This document shows positions 4,115 through 36,490 of a DNA stretch of 38,982 nucleotides, one piece after another. The notes beneath the pieces were generated by a model. That model saw nothing but the letters and a program-made list of their open reading frames with translations. It ran no database searches and was not told the origin of the DNA. Source of the DNA: a virus; IMG/VR virus record IMGVR_UViG_3300046323_000172, positions 1 through 38,982 of that record. The stretch is one strand, 5' to 3'. Each line of letters opens with the position of its first letter. The stretch's first letter is position 1. Both the position numbers and the translations under genes were made by a program.

Positions 4115-4885
4115 ATGAGAAAATTAGTCACAACAGACATCACAAATTCGGTCGGTTTCCCTGTAAAAGCGGGAACCCTTAACCACATCCAACTAGCATA
4201 CCAAGAAGCGCTCACGGCTTTAGCTAATAGCATAATCGGCCGTTTGCCGGATTCTTCAAATTGCTACATTTTATTTGGTTGCAAAAATACCGGTTCGGGG
4301 ACTTCTTATGTTATCAGCGCCGGCGCAATTTATTACAATGGCGAAGTTTATTTAGTTGATGCGGTTTCATTTACGGCAGCAAGCGGACAAACGGCGGTGC
4401 TTAATTTTGTGACAACAAATTACACGACAAACGCCGATCCGGTAACGTTTACCGATGGGGTAGCGCATAACGTGCATACAATTCAAAAAATCGCCATCGC
4501 TTCCGGTGTTAGCGGTTCGGGTGTTTGCGATTACGCAAATACTTTAACGCCTTTAGCGCTGGTAAACGACCAACAGGCGACTTTGCCGTCTACGTACACG
4601 GTTAATTTTAAGCAAGACAAGGCAACGTTTTTCGCTGCGGCTTCGGTTGACACAAACATCACTTTTGATTTCACAAACGCGGTAGCTGGCACGGTAATTC
4701 GTTTAAAATGGACGTATGGTTCAGGGCGCGCGCTTACAATTACCGCGCCTTCGGGTTCTACGGTTATAAAAGACGGCGGGAACCTTTCGGCCGTGGCTTC
4801 CGCAAATAATCTTTTGTATTGCATTTACTTAGGCAAAAACGAAAGCAATAATCACGAGGTGTCGTACACTTTAAAGCAATTCTAA
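4115..4885 (+). CDS. Short tail fibre / receptor-binding structural protein
   Basis: A 256-residue protein rich in Ser, Thr, Gly and Asn. The N-terminus (TDITNSVGFPVKAGTLNHIQLAYQEALTALA) is of the type that attaches short fibres to the baseplate. It is followed by beta-rich segments (SAGAIYYNGEVYLV) and a C-terminal jelly-roll-like tail. It sits after the J/I-like genes, where Mu- and P2-like phages place fibre genes. The exact receptor cannot be inferred. Confidence 0.65.
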   Translation: MRKLVTTDITNSVGFPVKAGTLNHIQLAYQEALTALANSIIGRLPDSSNCYILFGCKNTGSGTSYVISAGAIYYNGEVYLVDAVSFTAASGQTAVLNFVTTNYTTNADPVTFTDGVAHNVHTIQKIAIASGVSGSGVCDYANTLTPLALVNDQQATLPSTYTVNFKQDKATFFAAASVDTNITFDFTNAVAGTVIRLKWTYGSGRALTITAPSGSTVIKDGGNLSAVASANNLLYCIYLGKNESNNHEVSYTLKQF

Positions 4886-5567: not shown

Positions 5568-6713
5568 ATGATGTACAATTATATCCAAAATATCGAAAGT
5601 GAAGAGCCGATTATGCTAATTAATCGCCATATCGGCTATGATGAGCAGGAAGGTATGGGAATTGATGGCGCGGTATTTCAGCAAGAATTGATGTTACTTG
5701 ACACAATGGGCAAGAAACGAATTCAGGTTTGGATTAATTCGGGGGGTGGTATGGTGATGGATGGTTACAATATTTGTAACGCTATCCTAAAATCTAACAC
5801 GCCAGTCGACACTTATTGTATGGGAATGGCCGCAAGTATTGCCGGCGTAATTTTCCAAACAGGCCGTAAAAGAATAATGGCCGATTATGGTATTTTGATG
5901 TATCATAACCCGTACGCAGGCGACAAAACAAATAGCCCAATGTTGGAATCTATGAAAGATTCTTTAAACACGCTTATTTGTAACCGTTGCGCAATGGATT
6001 CGAAGGCGGTTCAAGAAATGATGGATAATACTTCATTTATTGAGCCGGAAATGGCAAAGGCTTTAAAGCTATGCGATGAAATAGAAGTTACGCAAAAATT
6101 GAATACTAAATATATGCCTAAAACGCAGTCAGATTCGGCGGCGTTTCATTTAGCGGCAAATAAGGTTTTGAATAAAATTTTAACAAATCAAACTAACAAA
6201 ATGCAAAAGGTTTTAAACAAACTTAGCTTGGCGGACGATGCAAACGAAGAAAGCATCTTACAAGCGATCGAAAGCATTGAGAACAAGTCAGCGGAAGCTA
6301 TGGAAATCGTCAACAAAAAATCGGCGGAAGAATTAGACAAAATGAAGTGCGACTTGGAGGAAATGGAAAACAAGTATAACGCAGCTAAGAAGGAATTCGA
6401 AGATTGCAAAAACGAGTTAGACGCTATCAACGAAGCTAAAGCAAAAGTTGAAGAACAAATGGCGGAGGACAAAGCTAAAAACTTAGTCGAAGAATCAGTT
6501 CAGGACGGAAAAGTTAAAAACGAAGTAGCTACCATCGAAGCGTGGACGGCTAAAGCGAAATTAGATTTCGAAGGAACTAAAGCGTTATTAGATGGCATCG
6601 CGGTAAACAAATCGTCGGTAAAAATCAAAATTGCAAACAAAGAAACCGAAGGCGTTGAGAAATTCCCTAGCGTAGCTTTAGCAATGGCGCAAATCAGTAA
6701 TTCTCTTAAATAA
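5568..6713 (+). CDS. ClpP-type (S14) prohead protease fused to scaffold domain
   Basis: A 381-residue protein. Residues about 1-175 are a ClpP-like serine protease: INSGGGMVMDGYNI oxyanion region (56-69), catalytic Ser90 in GMAASIAG, His113 in MYHNPYAG, and a likely Asp170 in the KLCDEI segment. Residues about 200-310 are Lys/Glu-rich and predicted coiled coil, the usual scaffolding region of protease-scaffold fusions. The C-terminus is compact. The enzyme should drive capsid assembly and then degrade the scaffold and itself inside the prohead. It lies directly before the major capsid gene, as expected. Confidence 0.88.
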   Translation: MMYNYIQNIESEEPIMLINRHIGYDEQEGMGIDGAVFQQELMLLDTMGKKRIQVWINSGGGMVMDGYNICNAILKSNTPVDTYCMGMAASIAGVIFQTGRKRIMADYGILMYHNPYAGDKTNSPMLESMKDSLNTLICNRCAMDSKAVQEMMDNTSFIEPEMAKALKLCDEIEVTQKLNTKYMPKTQSDSAAFHLAANKVLNKILTNQTNKMQKVLNKLSLADDANEESILQAIESIENKSAEAMEIVNKKSAEELDKMKCDLEEMENKYNAAKKEFEDCKNELDAINEAKAKVEEQMAEDKAKNLVEESVQDGKVKNEVATIEAWTAKAKLDFEGTKALLDGIAVNKSSVKIKIANKETEGVEKFPSVALAMAQISNSLK

Positions 6714-6744
6714 ACGTATTTTTTAACAACAAAATTTTAATAAG

Positions 6745-7764
6745 ATGGCAGAAGCCTTAATTATTCAAGACCAAACATACGCAGGTGAGGCGGCTTCCTA
6801 CTTCATCACGCGTCCGGTTATCGAAATGGACACAACTAAGAAAGGTTGTATTCACGTAGAAGACGGAATCAAGAAGCAAAAAACAATTCCACGTATTGAA
6901 GTTGCTAACTTCATTCAACGCCGTGCAGCTACCCCAACAAATCAGGGTACTATCACCGTTGATGGCCGTGTTTTAGTTCCACAAGATTTGATGCTTTATT
7001 TAGAGTTCAACCCTCGTGATTACGAAGCGCACTGGTTCGCGGTTCAATTGGAGCCTAAATTGTTAGACCGTCAATTGCCACCAACTGCGGAAGAATTTAC
7101 AATGTTACAAACGATGAAGCGTTTGAACGAATTCTTTGAAAAAGCAACTTGGAGAAGCCGTTTAATTTTCGATCCATTATCTTCTAGCTACGCTACACCG
7201 GCTTCAAAAGGACAACCTGCATCAGATGCTAGTTATTTCTATTTTGATGGCTTAATGGCGAAGTTATTAGGTTCATCTGAAACCATCCAAATCACTTCCC
7301 CAGCTACTTTAGTCGCAGGAACTGCGGGTTCAGGCGAAGAAAACATCGGTTTAGCTTTCGGACGTGTTTACGCAAAAGTTCCACAAGCGATTTTATTTAA
7401 GTACGGTTCAAAAGGTTTGAAGTTCCACGTTTCATACGCAACACAACAAATCTTCGAAGAATTCTTGACAACTCAATTGTACAAGAACAACGATACGACT
7501 GAAAAAGGTATCAACCGCTACAAAGGATACGATGTTGTGCCTTTGGCTGGTATGCCAGACAACACAATCGTAGCTTGTGTAACTTCACCGGATTTAGAAT
7601 CTAACCTTTGGTTAGGTGTTAACTCAACTTCTGATGAGAACGGCTTACAATTAGCACGTTTACAGAACAACTCTGAATTGTTCTTCATCAAAGGTTTGTT
7701 CAAAATGGACACGCAAGTTGGTTTCCCTGATTTCGTTGTTTTATACACGACAATCACTGCTTAA
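6745..7764 (+). CDS. Major capsid protein
   Basis: A 339-residue protein downstream of the protease/scaffold gene, the canonical place of the capsid gene. Its codon use is the most biased in the window (CGT for Arg, TTC, AAC, GTT, CCA), as expected for the most abundant virion protein. It has no membrane segment. Segments such as PRIEVANFIQ, VLVPQDLMLYLEFNPRDYE and the closing GLFKMDTQVGFPDFVVLY fit an HK97-fold capsid of the kind found in Bacteroidota phages. It is followed by a perfect intrinsic terminator. Confidence 0.85.
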   Translation: MAEALIIQDQTYAGEAASYFITRPVIEMDTTKKGCIHVEDGIKKQKTIPRIEVANFIQRRAATPTNQGTITVDGRVLVPQDLMLYLEFNPRDYEAHWFAVQLEPKLLDRQLPPTAEEFTMLQTMKRLNEFFEKATWRSRLIFDPLSSSYATPASKGQPASDASYFYFDGLMAKLLGSSETIQITSPATLVAGTAGSGEENIGLAFGRVYAKVPQAILFKYGSKGLKFHVSYATQQIFEEFLTTQLYKNNDTTEKGINRYKGYDVVPLAGMPDNTIVACVTSPDLESNLWLGVNSTSDENGLQLARLQNNSELFFIKGLFKMDTQVGFPDFVVLYTTITA

Positions 7765-8426: not shown

Positions 8427-9947
8427 ATGTCACTTAATAACATCACATTCAACTTAGGTCAAGGCGGTTTAGGCCGTCCGTTGGCTGGAGAAGATTATAT
8501 TTCGGGATTATTGTTTTATTCTGCGACGTTACCTCAAGGGTTTTCGTCATCTGACAGAATCAAACAATTCTTCTCGGTAGCGGATGCGGAGGCAAAGGGT
8601 ATCGTTGGCAATTATAGCGACGAAACACAAGCCACGGGATCGTTATTAGTAACCGCAGCGGGAGCGGCGGGGGATAGCGTAGAAATTAGAGTCGACGAGC
8701 CATTAGGCAAAACGATTGTTATTGGTAGCTATACCCGTTCATCGACTGATTCAACGGTTAATCTAGTAGCGACTGGAATCGCGGCAGCAATCAACGCAGG
8801 AACCGCAACACACGGTTACTCTGCAACGGCTGCAACGGCAACGGTTACAATCAAAGCGCGCAAAGGCTTAGGTATTTTCTTGAATTCAGGAACGCCTATC
8901 ACTTACGGTATCGTTGGAACGGTAGCTTTCACGGTTACTCAATTTTCGGGCGGTGTGGCTTCGGTATTCAAAACGATGCACTATCACATTTCTGAATATT
9001 TCCGCATTCAGCCAAAAGGTAATTTATTCGTAGGAATCTACGCGGTGCCTTCGACGTACACGTTCACTGAAATTGCAACAATTCAAAACTTTGCAAACGG
9101 TAAAATCCGTCAGATTGGTGTATTCAAAAACGGCGCAGCTTTTGCAAGCGCAGATATTACAACTATTAACGGGGTTTGTTCTTCTTTAGTAGCCGCACAC
9201 AAGGAAATCGTTGCCCTTTACGGCGCTGATATTTCTGCGGTTAGTGATATTTCAACAATTGCAGATTTATCGGCCTTATCGGCAAATTTAGTTTCTGCCG
9301 TTATCGGTCAAGACGGCGCCGCTTTAGGTGCTTCCATCTTCTACGCTACCGGAAAATCAGTAACTACCCTAGGCGCTACGTTGGGAGCGGTTGCGAAAGC
9401 AAAAGTTTCCCAGTCAATCGCTTGGGTTGCACAATTCAATATTTCGAACGGCGTTGAGTGCGACGTGTTAGCGTTTGCTAATGGTGTGGCGTTCTCAAAT
9501 TCATCGGTTACCGATGGTTTGTTGACTTCATTACAAGATAAGCGTTACATTTTCCTTCGCAAATTTGTAGGCGTTGCCGGAAGTTATTTTAACGAAAATA
9601 GTTCAGCTATTGCGGTGTCTAGCGATTATGCTTATATTGCAGACAATAGAACAATTCAAAAGGCGACACGCGGTATTTATACCAACCTAGCGCCGGCTTT
9701 AAATAGCCCGATTGTTTTGAATGCTGACGGAACTATTAGCGATGAAGCGATTGCGTACTTCACAGGTTTAGCGGAAGAGCCATTAATCCAAATGATTCGC
9801 GACGCGGAATTGAGCGGTGAGCAGGTAGTTATCAACTCAACTCAAAACATTTTGAGCACTGGGATTTTGGTGATTTCGGTTAACCTTGTTCAAGTAGCGA
9901 CAGGACGTAATATTCAAGTAAATATCGGTTACTCTGTATCCGTTTAA
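8427..9947 (+). CDS. Tail sheath protein
   Basis: A 506-residue protein. The C-terminal part shows the sheath signature order: FVGVAGSYFNENSSAI, SDYAYIADNRTIQKATRGIY, then LNSPIVLNADGTI and a closing strand region VVINSTQNILSTG...LVQVATGRNIQVNIGY. The middle (about 60-180) holds an inserted Ser/Thr/Ala-rich domain with VTVTIKARKGLGIFLNSG. The sheath polymerises around the tube and contracts to push it through the envelope, which defines the phage as a myovirus. It is followed directly by the tube gene, the standard sheath-tube pair. Confidence 0.85.
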   Translation: MSLNNITFNLGQGGLGRPLAGEDYISGLLFYSATLPQGFSSSDRIKQFFSVADAEAKGIVGNYSDETQATGSLLVTAAGAAGDSVEIRVDEPLGKTIVIGSYTRSSTDSTVNLVATGIAAAINAGTATHGYSATAATATVTIKARKGLGIFLNSGTPITYGIVGTVAFTVTQFSGGVASVFKTMHYHISEYFRIQPKGNLFVGIYAVPSTYTFTEIATIQNFANGKIRQIGVFKNGAAFASADITTINGVCSSLVAAHKEIVALYGADISAVSDISTIADLSALSANLVSAVIGQDGAALGASIFYATGKSVTTLGATLGAVAKAKVSQSIAWVAQFNISNGVECDVLAFANGVAFSNSSVTDGLLTSLQDKRYIFLRKFVGVAGSYFNENSSAIAVSSDYAYIADNRTIQKATRGIYTNLAPALNSPIVLNADGTISDEAIAYFTGLAEEPLIQMIRDAELSGEQVVINSTQNILSTGILVISVNLVQVATGRNIQVNIGYSVSV

Positions 9948-24111: not shown

Positions 24112-25104
24112 ATGGCACAATTATCATTTAAAAAAATAGAAATTGAACAAGATTTCTATTCTTCAAACCTGAATTTATTAAACTTTTGCAAAGCAAATTT
24201 TGAGCATTACGGCTATGTTAGCGCGTACAGGTTCCAAAAGCAGATGCAAAAATACGGCATCACTTTAAGAAGTCGCACAGAATATCACTTGTCCCACAAA
24301 CCCGAAGCGAAAACAGAAACTTTTGATTTTTCAGAAGTGGACGATTTCGGAATCGAACCAGCAATAGGGAAAGATTATGTTTCTGCGCGGCTTCCTGAAG
24401 CAATTAAACGCATTGGAATACTATCCGATATTCACGTTCCTTTTCATTCAATGGAGGCGCTTATATGCGCAATTAAATACCTGAAATCAAAAAGTATCGA
24501 ATGCCTGTATTTGAACGGGGACGTTTTTGATTTTTACAGCATTTCACGCCACGAAAAGGAGCGCGACCTTCGCGATCTACCGCGCGAAATTGAAATGTGT
24601 CGAAACTTCTTGGTTAAAATTCGCGAAATATTCCCGAAAATTCCTATTTACTTTAAAATGGGGAACCACGAAAACCGCTGGCAAAGGTACCTAAATGATC
24701 AGGCGGAAGAATTCGCCCAGTTGCACGAAATGCAATTTGAACAATTCTTTAGGCTGGATAAACTAAAAATTGATTTTGTGCCTGACTGGCAAGGTTTCGA
24801 AATGGGTGATTTGCTAGTAGTTCACGGCCACGAAATTATGGCCGGCGGTATGAACCCTAGCCAAACGACGTTTAATAAAACGTTCTGCAATACATTACTA
24901 GGCCACGTTCATAGAACAACGGCCACGACAAAAAAAACAGGCTTTAAAGAATACATCCACACCTTTTCTACTGGATGCCTTACTTACCTTTCGCCCAAAT
25001 ATTACCCTTACGCCCAGCATAATCACGGTTTCGCGTTTGTAGAAATTAAAGACGGTGCGGCAAAAGTTGAAAATTTGATGATAAAAGACGGGAAAATAGT
25101 TTAG
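24112..25104 (+). CDS. Calcineurin-like metallophosphoesterase
   Basis: A 330-residue protein. Residues about 100-310 hold the metallophosphoesterase motifs in order: DIH (106-108), GDVFD (136-140), GNHE (184-187), HGH (238-240) and GHVH (264-267). These bind two metals and cleave phosphoesters. The N-terminal 100 residues are helical (NLLNFCKANFEHYGYVSAYRFQ) and look like a DNA- or protein-binding arm. In phages such enzymes lie near replication and recombination genes and may act as nucleases or phosphatases. A terminator follows directly. Confidence 0.85.
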   Translation: MAQLSFKKIEIEQDFYSSNLNLLNFCKANFEHYGYVSAYRFQKQMQKYGITLRSRTEYHLSHKPEAKTETFDFSEVDDFGIEPAIGKDYVSARLPEAIKRIGILSDIHVPFHSMEALICAIKYLKSKSIECLYLNGDVFDFYSISRHEKERDLRDLPREIEMCRNFLVKIREIFPKIPIYFKMGNHENRWQRYLNDQAEEFAQLHEMQFEQFFRLDKLKIDFVPDWQGFEMGDLLVVHGHEIMAGGMNPSQTTFNKTFCNTLLGHVHRTTATTKKTGFKEYIHTFSTGCLTYLSPKYYPYAQHNHGFAFVEIKDGAAKVENLMIKDGKIV

Positions 25105-25139
25105 TTTTGTAAAATCATAGTGGTTTAGAACAGAAAATT

Positions 25140-25171
25140 AAAGGCTTGGGGCGTTGCTCTAAGCCTTTTTT
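25140..25171 (+). terminator. Intrinsic terminator after the metallophosphoesterase
   Basis: The stem AAAGGCTT / AAGCCTTT (25140-25147 with 25161-25168), extended inward by GGGC/GCTC with one G-T pair, is followed by six T. It ends the first early transcript. Confidence 0.88.
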
Positions 25172-25221
25172 GTGCCTAAAAAATAAATTTTATAAAATAA
25201 TTATAAATTTATAATGTTTTT

Positions 25222-25253
25222 CTTGTCTAGTAAATTTCCGTTTACTACCTTTG
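25222..25253 (+). promoter_or_regulatory. Early promoter P2 with operator palindrome
   Basis: The -33 box CTTG (25222-25225) and -7 box TACCTTTG (25246-25253) have 20 bp between them. TAGTAAA (25228-25234) and TTTACTA (25241-25247) form a perfect 7-bp inverted repeat with a 6-bp spacer TTTCCG between the boxes. The geometry is base-for-base the same as P1. The leader has a hairpin AATAGC / GCTATT (25260-25277). Probably one repressor controls both promoters. Confidence 0.82.
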
Positions 25254-25275
25254 TTTCACAATAGCAACGGAGCTA

Positions 25276-25288
25276 TTCTAAACCACCA
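25276..25288 (+). promoter_or_regulatory. CCTAAACC-like leader motif, copy 2
   Basis: TTCTAAACCACC lies a few bases before the ATG at 25294. Its first ten bases are the reverse complement of TGGTTTAGAA at 25121-25130, upstream of the preceding terminator. Confidence 0.55.
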
Positions 25289-25293
25289 AAAAA

Positions 25294-25533
25294 ATGACAA
25301 CTTACAAGGCTTACAAAACTTCATTCGGAAAACAAAACTGGACGGTAATTGTTGCAAACGGAAAATTTAATTACGTTTCATTAGGTAAAGAAACTTACTT
25401 GCGCGTTCCATTTTACAAAGATTTTAATTCATTTGAAAAAGCTATTGAAAATTACAAAGACGTTAAAATTAAATTGTTTTTAGAATTGATAAGCATTGGA
25501 ATGGTTAACCCAACTTCTCAAACAATTGCATAA
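25294..25533 (+). CDS. Hypothetical early protein
   Basis: A 79-residue protein, first gene after P2. It starts MTTYKAYKTSFGKQNWTVIV, has a short beta part (GKFNYVSLGKETYLRVPF) and a helical end. No family is recognised. Confidence 0.6.
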   Translation: MTTYKAYKTSFGKQNWTVIVANGKFNYVSLGKETYLRVPFYKDFNSFEKAIENYKDVKIKLFLELISIGMVNPTSQTIA

Positions 25534-27570: not shown

Positions 27571-27873
27571 ATGGAAAATCTGACAAGTGATCTAAAAAAC
27601 AAATTGCGGATACCTTTAACGTTTGAAGAATATCACGCTATAAACCCACAGGTTTACTCCAAGTTTTGTATGTACACCGAAATGCTAATTAAGGCAGGGC
27701 GCAAGAAATTAGGCGCAAAAGCAATAATGGAACGGTGCCGGTGGGACACAATGATTGAAACGGTAGGTATTTTTAAAATAAACAATAATTATACCGCGGC
27801 TTATTCTAAAAAATTCGAACAAGACCACCCACAATTTAAGGGCATTTTTGAGCACCGAATAAAAAGGAATTAG
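27571..27873 (+). CDS. Conserved phage protein of unknown function
   Basis: A 100-residue protein. The pattern FEEYHAINPQVYSKF...GRKKLGAKAIMERCRWDT...FKINNNYTAAYSKKFEQDHPQFKGIFEHR, read in parts, is one I associate with a widely spread phage protein of unknown function (NP.VY..F....I..G....GAK.I.ER.RW...........IN....AYY...F...HP...G.F..R). It closes the operon before the structured RNA; a -7 box begins right after its stop. Confidence 0.65.
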   Translation: MENLTSDLKNKLRIPLTFEEYHAINPQVYSKFCMYTEMLIKAGRKKLGAKAIMERCRWDTMIETVGIFKINNNYTAAYSKKFEQDHPQFKGIFEHRIKRN

Positions 27874-27881
27874 TATATTTG
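27874..27881 (+). promoter_or_regulatory. -7 promoter element for the structured RNA
   Basis: TATATTTG is a full match to TAnnTTTG, beginning at the base after the stop of the 27571 gene. The nearest upstream TTG is 23 bp away rather than 19-21, so the -33 part is weak. Transcription would start about 7-10 bases downstream, just before the structured RNA. Confidence 0.6.
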
Positions 27882-27887
27882 TAAACA

Positions 27888-27978
27888 ATAAGCGACGGGG
27901 GTAGGAGTTCGTCGGTTATTTTAGGGTTAAAAAACCAAAAAGCCAGCTTTGCACTCCTACGCAGACTGGCTTTTTTTT
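27888..27978 (+). ncRNA. Structured RNA with predicted kissing-loop and terminator
   Basis: Three hairpins in about 90 bases. H1: CGACG/CGTCG (27893-27897 with 27910-27914), 12-base loop containing GTAGGAGT (27901-27908). H2: GGTT/AACC (27925-27936). H3: AAAAAGCCAG/CTGGCTTTTT (27937-27946 with 27966-27975), running into eight T, a strong terminator. Its top is closed by TGC/GCA so that the apical loop is exactly ACTCCTAC (27953-27960), the full complement of GTAGGAGT in H1. This predicts an 8-bp kissing interaction. No ORF uses the segment. It could be a free small RNA or a leader that controls read-through into the gene at 27987. Confidence 0.7.
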
Positions 27979-27986
27979 GTTTAAAA

Positions 27987-28142
27987 ATGGAAAATAAAAA
28001 TACAAAGGCACCTAGAACAATTCTTTGTAATTGGTGCAATAAAAGAAGATTATTTTCAAACGGTTACTATTTAGGCAAAAGCCCCAACGGAAAAGAATAT
28101 TTCATTTGTTCTAAATGTAATTTAATTAAAGACATAGTTTAA
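27987..28142 (+). CDS. Small zinc-ribbon protein
   Basis: A 51-residue protein with ILCNWCNKRR and FICSKCNLIK knuckles, i.e. CxxC...CxxC. The start lies 9 bases after the terminator T tract of the structured RNA, so its expression needs read-through of that hairpin or a processed transcript. It is followed by the replication initiator after 2 bases. The role may be regulatory; it is not identified. Confidence 0.6.
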   Translation: MENKNTKAPRTILCNWCNKRRLFSNGYYLGKSPNGKEYFICSKCNLIKDIV

Positions 28143-28144
28143 TT

Positions 28145-28858
28145 ATGAAATACTACCTACACGATTCGACTTCATTTAACGATGAAAAAATCACTGAATT
28201 ATACCTAGAATTTGGGTACGAAGGGCTTGGTTTATTTTATACAATTCTTGAAAAATTAGCCCTTCAAGAGAAACCAATTAAGACAAAAATCCTTAAACAT
28301 CAATTAAATGTTGGCAAAAAATTAGAAAAATGTTGGGATTTTATGGAAAAAATTGAACTTATTTCTTCAATAAATGGCGAAACTTTCAACGAACAACTTC
28401 TAAATTTTAGTAAAAAGTATCAAGTCAACAAGGAGAAAAACGCGGATAAAGTCGCAGAATGGCGTAAAAGTAAAAAAAGTAACGAAAATGTAACCGGTTA
28501 CGAACCTGATTGTAACGCCACTAAAGTAAATAAAGTAAAATCAATTAAAATAAAAGAAAGTAAACACTTTGATTTTTTTTGGGAGGCGTTTAATAAAAAA
28601 ATAGATCGCGCTAAATGTGAAAACGTTTGGTCTAAATTAACCGAAGAAGAAGTTCAAAAAATTGTGGCAACCGTTGACCAATATGTTTTGGCAAACCCTG
28701 AAATCAAATTCAGGAAAAATCCTTTAACTTACCTAAACGGAAAATGCTTTAATGACGAAATAGTTTTTTATCCTAAACCCCAAAACAATGGAAATTTCAA
28801 CAATGAACAAAAACTCGGAACTAGCGCCGCAAGAATGGAAGCCGCGCGAAATTTCTAA
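28145..28858 (+). CDS. DUF4373-type replication initiator / replisome organiser
   Basis: A 237-residue protein. The N-terminal 100 residues have the DUF4373 winged-helix pattern: HDSTSFNDEKITELYLEFGYEGLGLFYTILE, then KHQLNVGKKLEKCWDFMEKIELIS. A Lys-rich linker (about 105-140) follows. The C-terminal domain (FWEAFNKKIDRAKCENVWSKL...NPLTYLNGKCFND) is DnaD-like. Such proteins bind the origin and help load the helicase. Short AAAGTAA repeats lie in the linker DNA, as in initiators that carry the origin inside the gene. The next gene overlaps by 71 bases. Confidence 0.75.
   Translation: MKYYLHDSTSFNDEKITELYLEFGYEGLGLFYTILEKLALQEKPIKTKILKHQLNVGKKLEKCWDFMEKIELISSINGETFNEQLLNFSKKYQVNKEKNADKVAEWRKSKKSNENVTGYEPDCNATKVNKVKSIKIKESKHFDFFWEAFNKKIDRAKCENVWSKLTEEEVQKIVATVDQYVLANPEIKFRKNPLTYLNGKCFNDEIVFYPKPQNNGNFNNEQKLGTSAARMEAARNF
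28467..28563 (+). repeat. AAAGTAA iteron-like repeats inside the initiator gene
   Basis: Five AAAGTAA copies begin at 28467, 28476, 28523, 28532 and 28557. Two pairs have the same 9-bp step. They fall in the AT-rich linker between the DNA-binding and C-terminal domains of the initiator, the place where lambda-type origins lie. The linker encodes many Lys residues, so part of the pattern could be coding. Confidence 0.45.
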
Positions 28859-35608: not shown

Positions 35609-36490
35609 ATGCCTTATTTAATCGCAAAAGACCTCAATAAACAAATACAGGGCGAAAATTTAAACCAAGTTATTGGGGGCGATTCTAGCATCCTAAGCGC
35701 TGCGGAACTTACGGCAATCGAGGAAGCCAAAAGCTATTTAGTGCAACGTTACGATACATCGCAGGAATTTAAGGATTTGAACGAGTGGAGTAAGTCATCT
35801 ATTTACAAACCAACCGACCGTGTTTACCTTAATGCCACGGCTTATTCATTAAAAACCTATGCGGTTGGCGATTTGGCTTTACAGGCTGGAATCGTTTACA
35901 AATGCACGACGGCCATCACAACGGCCGAAGCGTTTAACCCTGTAAAATGGGCTTTATTAGGTTTGCAATACGATATTTTTTACGCAGTTTACCCGAAGCC
36001 GTTATTTAATTTTGATGGGATGTATGCGGTAGGCGATCAAGTATATTGGGAAGGCAAAATTTACGCTTGCAAAATTCAAACGCAACCGTACTCACAGACT
36101 ACCCTATTGCAATACCGCGAAATAGACAACGTGCCATCGCTTAACATTGTGCCAAACAACGTTAACAACGGGGCTATTTATTGGGGTTTTCTTTCTGATT
36201 ATACGGTTCCGGTAAACACCGATATTTTAAATTCGACGTATTGGGCTAAGGGCGACAATAGAAGCCAGCAATTACTTACCACGGTGGTAGATATTGCGCT
36301 TTATCACGTTCATAGCCGTATTAGCCCGCGCAATATTCCTGACCTTCGCGTGAAACGTTATGATGACGCCCGCAACTGGTTAAAAATGGCTTCCCGTGGC
36401 GAAATCACGGCAAGTATTCCAATGTTACAACCCACAAAAGGCGGTCGTATTCGTTACGGCGGCGGCATAAAGCAGATTAACACATATTAA
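35609..36490 (+). CDS. gp36-like head-tail connector with carbohydrate-binding-like inserts
   Basis: A 293-residue protein, twice the usual length of Mu gp36/DUF1320 proteins. The split core is visible: AIEEAKSYLVQRYDT at the N-terminus and LLTTVVDIALYHVHSRISPRNIPDLRVKRYDDARNWLKMASRGE, read in parts, at the C-terminus. Between them lie modules rich in Trp/Tyr: YSLKTYAVGDLALQAGIVYKC...W (about 79-118) and MYAVGDQVYWEGKIYAC (about 138-154). They resemble CBM5/12 chitin-binding repeats. The inserts probably face outward at the head-tail neck. Confidence 0.7.
   Translation: MPYLIAKDLNKQIQGENLNQVIGGDSSILSAAELTAIEEAKSYLVQRYDTSQEFKDLNEWSKSSIYKPTDRVYLNATAYSLKTYAVGDLALQAGIVYKCTTAITTAEAFNPVKWALLGLQYDIFYAVYPKPLFNFDGMYAVGDQVYWEGKIYACKIQTQPYSQTTLLQYREIDNVPSLNIVPNNVNNGAIYWGFLSDYTVPVNTDILNSTYWAKGDNRSQQLLTTVVDIALYHVHSRISPRNIPDLRVKRYDDARNWLKMASRGEITASIPMLQPTKGGRIRYGGGIKQINTY

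Follow-up and report, generated by a model that had tools for sequence, protein, structure and literature searches.

An RNA with two mutually complementary hairpin loops, one in its own terminator, lies ahead of phage replication initiator genes

Why would a phage RNA of ~90 nt carry two hairpin loops that are complementary to each other, the second of them inside an intrinsic terminator, just ahead of a replication initiator gene? The RNA that raises this question lies at 27887–27978 in the IMG/VR virus record IMGVR_UViG_3300046323_000172, whose full 38,982 nucleotides (positions 1 to 38,982) were analysed and are here called the window. A -7 box, three hairpins, the positions of both loops and a terminator with eight T had been proposed from the letters of the DNA, and all of these are borne out by the sequence and by the MFE fold, in which the three-hairpin structure has an energy of -33.9 kcal/mol (z = -4.1) that 0 of 200 shuffles equalled. 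Promoter, hairpins, T-run and loop-loop match are thus all present in the one locus, and we regard the three-hairpin kissing structure as near certain. Its parts and the genes that follow, all on the + strand, are:

27847..27850, +, possible -33 element TTTG, read from the sequence, 23 nt 5′ of the -7 box
27874..27881, +, -7 box TATATTTG of the Bacteroidota TAnnTTTG type, read from the sequence and kept in relatives with unrelated upstream genes
27887..27920, +, hairpin H1, from the fold and covariation
27901..27908, +, kissing strand GTAGGAGT in the H1 loop, from covariation, with the conserved core at 27901–27907
27925..27936, +, small hairpin H2 (GGTT-AAAA-AACC), from covariation
27940..27972, +, terminator hairpin H3, from the fold and covariation
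27953..27960, +, kissing strand ACTCCTAC in the terminator loop, from sequence and covariation
27971..27978, +, intrinsic-terminator T-run of eight T, read from the sequence
27987..28142, +, 51-aa CxxC...CxxC zinc-ribbon-like ORF, its ATG 8 nt 3′ of the T-run
28145..28858, +, replication initiation protein with a weak Lin1244_N-like N-terminus, from PHROG and Pfam

H1 consists of an outer stem (27887–27891/27916–27920) and an inner stem (27893–27898/27909–27914), and two G-U closing pairs determine whether its loop counts 10 nt (GG + 8) or 8 nt; the match, originally described as covering one whole apical loop, therefore does not do so in both hairpins. The 5′ end of the RNA is predicted to fall at H1 or just before it. 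In the promoter columns of 33 non-redundant upstream regions, the relatives carry a TTT(T)G ~20 nt 5′ of a -7 box that follows the TAnnTTTG consensus reviewed for Bacteroidota (PMC7366714). The position 5′ of a small zinc-ribbon gene and a replication initiator was correctly called: the small ORF has no match in Pfam or PHROG, and the initiator matches the phrog_270 replication initiation protein (E = 2.5e-8) and, under the cut-off, PF14297 (E = 5e-4).

No known family had been recognised for this RNA, and Rfam 15 gave 0 matches to the window at the gathering threshold, with only matches far below the cut-off once the threshold was relaxed. The RNA nevertheless has many relatives, and its family, absent from Rfam, extends to well over a hundred contigs of uncultured phages. 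Taken by itself, the terminator-hairpin 25-mer has exact matches in 45 IMG/VR contigs; a two-loop pattern matched 61, and a pattern in which N replaced the terminator loop matched 71. Every match of this last, loop-blind search that has its upstream sequence present also has the matching H1 loop, and besides GTAGGAG/CTCCTAC the search returned the loop pairs GTCGGAG/CTCCGAC (23 contigs) and GTGGTAG/CTACCAC (3). A strict descriptor, which asks for a 7-mer in one hairpin loop that can pair with the loop of a second, T-tailed hairpin, recovered the window RNA and its relatives and found no match in shuffles of 21 phage records; a looser kissing descriptor gave ~0.18 matches per shuffled window strand. 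The search with a covariance model that had been recommended was carried out with a model built without the kissing pairs (R1); it aligned 84 loci, 73 of them distinct, in which both the stems and the loop pairing are compensated. The window RNA belongs to this type A, with compensated H1, H2 and terminator stems and compensated loop-loop pairing, and scores 101 bits (E = 7e-19) against a model for which it was itself among the building sequences. Type A copies occur once per phage record, and no second type A copy was seen.

Nearly all carriers are uncultured, and DNA similarity revealed no relatives among cultured phages and plasmids. The exact pattern was found in none of the bacterial genomes of 85k species, and R1 gave three weak matches in 395 Bacteroidota genomes, all plain terminators that lack an H1 loop partner. 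Tenacibaculum phage JQ (MT002873.2, about 35,950–36,060; locus L430, 2150–2260) has a candidate kissing leader 5′ of an initiator homologue, in which the H1 loop CATCCTAC is complementary over 9 nt to GTAGGATG in a T-tailed hairpin (the pair is also given as GCATCCTAC/GTAGGATGC); its H1 is weak and differs from the MFE fold, and it stands as a candidate only. The promoter type, the initiator relatives and phage JQ indicate that the hosts are probably Bacteroidota. No published report of the kissing RNA turned up in the literature covered, outside which lie most subscription journals.

Two further observations concern individual records. In the window itself, the interval 25103–25290, between a metallophosphoesterase gene and the ORF at 25294, has a -7-like TAGTTTTG followed by GGTTTAGAA and a strong terminator (AAAGGCTT..AAGCCTTTTTT), the 3′ arm of which, CTCTAAGCC, could pair with GGTTTAGA; a distal TTCTAAACC likewise pairs with GGTTTAGAA, the fold has z = -4.5, and the whole looks like a conventional attenuator or leader. 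The weak model match at 25111–25171 is an unrelated terminator and not a family member, and another at 4160–4226 in the record of the closest relative (L058) may be the same site. The 59,277-bp record IMGVR_UViG_3300027969_000114 (L044, L047) has loci that match two ~29.6-kb records of 3300009164, _000250 and _000251, and is probably a joined assembly of two phages, not a single genome.

The decisive evidence for the loop pairing comes from the way it varies. The 8-bp kissing loop originally proposed has a 7-bp core (columns 17–23) that is conserved throughout, with 511 of 511 cells paired over 73 distinct sequences in an alignment blind to kissing; the eighth pair of the window forms in only 43 of the 73 and is hence optional. 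Homologues that keep the primary sequence and lose the pairing had been named as the refuting case, and the opposite was found, namely 62 two-sided changes in the core and 0 one-sided ones, counts that are of sequences and not of independent events, although the changes do occur on differing stem backgrounds. GTCGGAG, for instance, sits on two terminator backgrounds, AGCCAG/CTGGCT and GCCTG/CAGGC. If the kissing partner is shifted by 1–3 columns, pairing falls from 95% to 30–65%. The hairpins themselves are supported in the same manner, H1 by two-sided changes in 11 of 11 pairs (98.1% of cells paired), H2 in 4 of 4 (94.5%) and the terminator stem H3 in 9 of 12. The loop types in the type A alignment are GUAGGAG, GUCGGAG, GUGGUAG, GUGAGAG and GUCAGAG, and the linker between the kissing loops measures 14–21 nt, mostly 17–20. 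Because pairing is kept while the loop letters change, we take it to be real, and the pattern of changes leaves very little doubt that it is under selection; together with the empty shuffles, it also upholds the contention that the loop match exceeds chance.

The DNA 5′ of initiator genes also contains RNAs that share this plan but are unrelated in sequence. Among these, type B has an H1 of the form AATCGC-[8-mer]-ATTATA-GCGATT, which contains the pyrimidine strand, and its purine strand lies in the inner loop of the terminator, after two purines. A pattern with six variable loop letters gave 38 matches, one a clear non-member, and the loops are perfectly complementary over 8 nt in 37 of 37 members, with four kissing 8-mers (CTCACTAC in 22, CTCTCGAC in 7, CTTCTCAC in 6 and CTCCTTAC in 2). 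Twenty distinct rows had 160 of 160 cells paired and 39 two-sided changes; these rows were picked with a relaxed complementarity filter, and the unbiased count is therefore 37/37. Type C comprises GTCGTAT/ATACGAC and GTCGGAT/ATCCGAC, which are one compensated pair apart, and in nearly all of types A–C the purine strand begins with GU. Single loci with loop matches of 6–10 bp were also seen (L227, L230, L231, L233, L234 and L235). The initiator leaders of L233 (~1373–1463), L234 (~1179–1263) and L171 (~1380–1480) have scaffolds unrelated to types A–C and show 9–11 nt of complementarity between the loop of an upstream hairpin and a downstream hairpin, in one case with a G-U pair. The only phage contig seen with two copies is L052, where a second RNA of the same plan (9270–9360, - strand, loop pair GTCGTGG/CCACGAC) lies just 5′ of an HNH endonuclease gene, and the loops of the two copies differ; the same contig has, at 6395–6916 on the - strand, an ORF with a tandem GNARVSGNA-type repeat that looks beta-helix-like.

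What the RNA might do is suggested by where it lies. Whatever the upstream gene, a -7 box of the TAnnTTTG type directly abuts H1, and a co-directional ATG mostly follows 8–12 nt 3′ of the T-run across several unrelated downstream gene families. The gene that follows is mostly the replication initiator or else, as in the window, a small gene just 5′ of it, and the initiators have at least four different N-terminal families, two of which match Lin1244_N to differing degrees and one HTH_36. A kissing RNA was detected within 1.5 kb 5′ of 133 of 155 initiator loci, as against 2 of 775 Markov shuffles, with the terminator loop at most 100 nt from the initiator ATG in 110 of the 133; a few initiator loci are without a detectable one, and the TGGCATA matches in this search are coding-sequence artefacts. 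The initiators (28145–28858 in the window; L001–L091 among relatives) are also modular, with at least four N-terminal domains on a few shared C-terminal tails (..GTSAARMEALRKW), and their domain swap point falls directly behind the RNA. No -7 box fits between T-run and start codon, and as the terminator stands directly before the gene, any transcript that reaches the gene must read through it, whatever its promoter. The position of the terminator is direct evidence, at the level of sequence, of a gate, though not of the regulation of that gate.

The loops also differ where little else does, which the original prediction had not foreseen. Loci were compared where each of the two 250-nt flanks shares at least 85% identity; of the 147 such pairs, 37 carry unlike loop types, and in 5 of these 37 a type A RNA stands against a type B RNA, that is, an unrelated one; L025 and L274, for example, are 88% and 93% identical in their flanks and 53% in the RNA. 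Upstream identity with different loops reaches 98.8% (L072/L170) and 98.2% (L260/L396). A single metagenome, 3300020043, holds five loop types: GTAGGAG (L030/L037), GTCGGAG (L083), GTGAGAG (L307/L308), CTCCTTAC (L335) and GTGGTAG (L408). Duplexes are predicted to have energies of -7.0 to -12.4 kcal/mol when both strands come from one type, and across types they almost always fall short of about -7, GUCGGAGU with ACUCUGAC (-10.2 kcal/mol) being one exception; on this calculation the loop types would be largely orthogonal.

The anatomy favours a leader or attenuator, since unrelated initiator genes mostly start ~8–12 nt 3′ of the T-run, and we consider that role probable. More tentatively, and as the fullest reading that we prefer, the locus may be an attenuator-type leader of the initiator operon that also yields a released RNA and takes its signal from homotypic loop pairing, probably in trans. 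Transcription would start at H1, pass H2 and normally stop at H3, and the released ~90-nt RNA would expose its two mutually complementary loops; the initiator operon, ~10 nt beyond, would be expressed only when RNA polymerase reads through. The H1 or H3 loop of a released RNA could kiss a nascent leader or another released copy and so change termination, such that initiator output would depend on the number of genomes of the same loop type in the cell and the loop sequence would serve as a specificity password. The fold, the covarying loop pairing, the position ahead of the initiator, the terminator in the path of transcription and the loop changes between near-identical flanks are seen in the sequences; that the RNA is transcribed and terminated in vivo, that kissing regulates the gene, that it does so in trans, and in which sense, are inferences. 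The original prediction had offered a free small RNA and an attenuator as alternatives; the two are mutually compatible and look the same by sequence. It had also suggested a ligand as a possible input, and no support was found for a small molecule: outside the loop strands and their preceding GG there is no invariant unpaired core of the kind a riboswitch would have, the kissing strands vary as matched pairs, and loop diversity argues for RNA-RNA specificity instead.

Action in trans by homotypic loop pairing, as copy control or superinfection immunity, is favoured because the swap pattern resembles that of immunity or incompatibility regions. It is possible, if doubtful, that the family is a self-recognition system of immunity or copy number, in which each phage type would own one pair of matching loops, the RNA of a resident phage would silence the initiator only in phages that share its password, and the passwords would have been diversified by negative frequency-dependent selection. 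Against a trans password, matched loop variants are also expected from compensatory drift of a purely intramolecular pairing, cassettes could be exchanged as a by-product of recombination at the initiator gene, itself modular and subject to swaps of its N-terminal domain, and both loops sit in one molecule, where pairing in cis is the simplest geometry if the 14–21 nt linker spans the distance. Loop types that are common and nearly invariant, such as GTAGGAG, which occurs in half of the distinct loci, are unlike the outcome of a strict arms race, and the few initiator loci in which no such RNA is detected also speak against the preferred reading.

The main rival is that H1 and the terminator loop kiss only within the same nascent RNA and set termination efficiency, stability or leader processing, which we judge somewhat unlikely. 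Both loops are on one transcript, the linker is short and of conserved length, H2 between them is conserved, and each phage record has one copy, all of which speaks for such pairing. By a rough estimate from a 12-pair H1, a kiss of 7–8 pairs and a terminator of ~13 layers, however, the linker would have to bridge ~33 stacked pairs, which is strained with H2 folded, if not impossible. Pairing in cis alone also offers no reason for the swaps of loop type between near-identical phages, nor for the missing one-sided (G-U) intermediates, which make up 0 of 62 kissing changes as against 27 of 198 H1-stem changes in cells that are not independent of one another.

A free small RNA whose target is a protein or another RNA of phage or host, with the terminator as a mere 3′ end and the downstream gene incidental, would account for the RNA's own promoter, strong terminator and compact 5′ and 3′ hairpins of the sort typical of stable small RNAs. 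We think it distinctly unlikely, as the loops, its obvious seeds, change freely as matched pairs, so that no fixed host target fits, and a constant place ~10 nt 5′ of the initiator operon across unrelated genes would not be expected. Trans targets elsewhere in the phage were rejected, since the loop 7-mers are near expectation, without clear enrichment, in most of the 21 records (one record is an outlier), in a count where the strand of a match is ambiguous because the motif reads alike on both strands. Pairing of the loops with 16S rRNA is likewise ruled out by their freely changing sequences; ACTCCTAC is part of the conserved 16S 338F site.

A direct part in replication, as primer, origin transcription or initiator loading and not gene regulation, would suit an RNA that nearly always adjoins the initiator, and kissing of ColE1 RNAI and RNAII does control a primer; it is nonetheless very improbable here, with several unrelated initiator families following the RNA, sometimes a small gene in between, and a strong terminator that ends the RNA before the gene. 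That the RNA multimerises as a structural element, for instance a packaging ring like that of phi29 pRNA, is scarcely credible, for although two complementary loops in one RNA permit head-to-tail multimers, the RNA lies in the early replication region and not beside terminase, overlaps the transcription gate and varies in loop type.

Set beside known systems, the preferred reading of a leader with a released RNA finds partial counterparts. The phi29 pRNA also has two complementary loops in one phage RNA, and differs in position, in promoter and terminator context and in the coupling to an initiator. Type III toxin-antitoxin loci (ToxIN, CptIN) share the order of promoter, structured RNA, terminator and ORF; here the ORFs downstream are initiators and the RNA is no repeat array. 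Judged by sequence features, the kissing RNA works most like the P4 CI RNA and the pT181-type attenuators and lacks a defining feature of each, and because of this we file it under neither. The CI RNA of P4, a small RNA that originates in the replication-operon leader, pairs with complementary sequences of that leader (seqA/seqC) and prematurely terminates the replication genes (PMC4825925); pairing within a replication-operon leader is found here as well, as is specificity from short complementary stretches, but the CI RNA arises by leader processing and has its targets on either side, whereas here a promoter of its own is predicted at H1 and the only complementary partner lies inside the same ~90-nt RNA, in an intrinsic terminator. 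A sequence relation between the two was looked for through Rfam, with no match at the gathering score. In pT181 (RNAI/repC leader) and pIP501 (RNAIII), kissing hairpins decide the attenuation of the initiator, and changes in loop and upper stem give orthogonal types (PMC3753616). A terminator between promoter and initiator gene and kissing-hairpin specificity are shared, at the sequence level, but their partners come from opposite DNA strands, whereas both partners here are on the + strand in the same RNA, and the opposite-strand cmsearch matches simply mirror these hairpins. The Gifsy-1 prophage RNA IsrK, with a small RNA and a longer messenger as its two isoforms (PMC4825925), is similarly a phage RNA that is both small RNA and leader; it is not known to have kissing between a leader hairpin and a terminator, and the gene concerned is the antirepressor anrP and not an initiator.

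If the leader role is true, widespread uncultured phages, probably of Bacteroidota, would control their initiator by an RNA lock that conserves nothing but the self-complementarity of its loops, a feature that escapes searches by sequence or by ordinary covariance. Should the RNA act in trans, the family would be a protein-free immunity or incompatibility system, and nature would have supplied many orthogonal kissing attenuators that could be used as parts. As an evolutionary case, it also shows cleanly how RNA-RNA specificity has diversified in phages.
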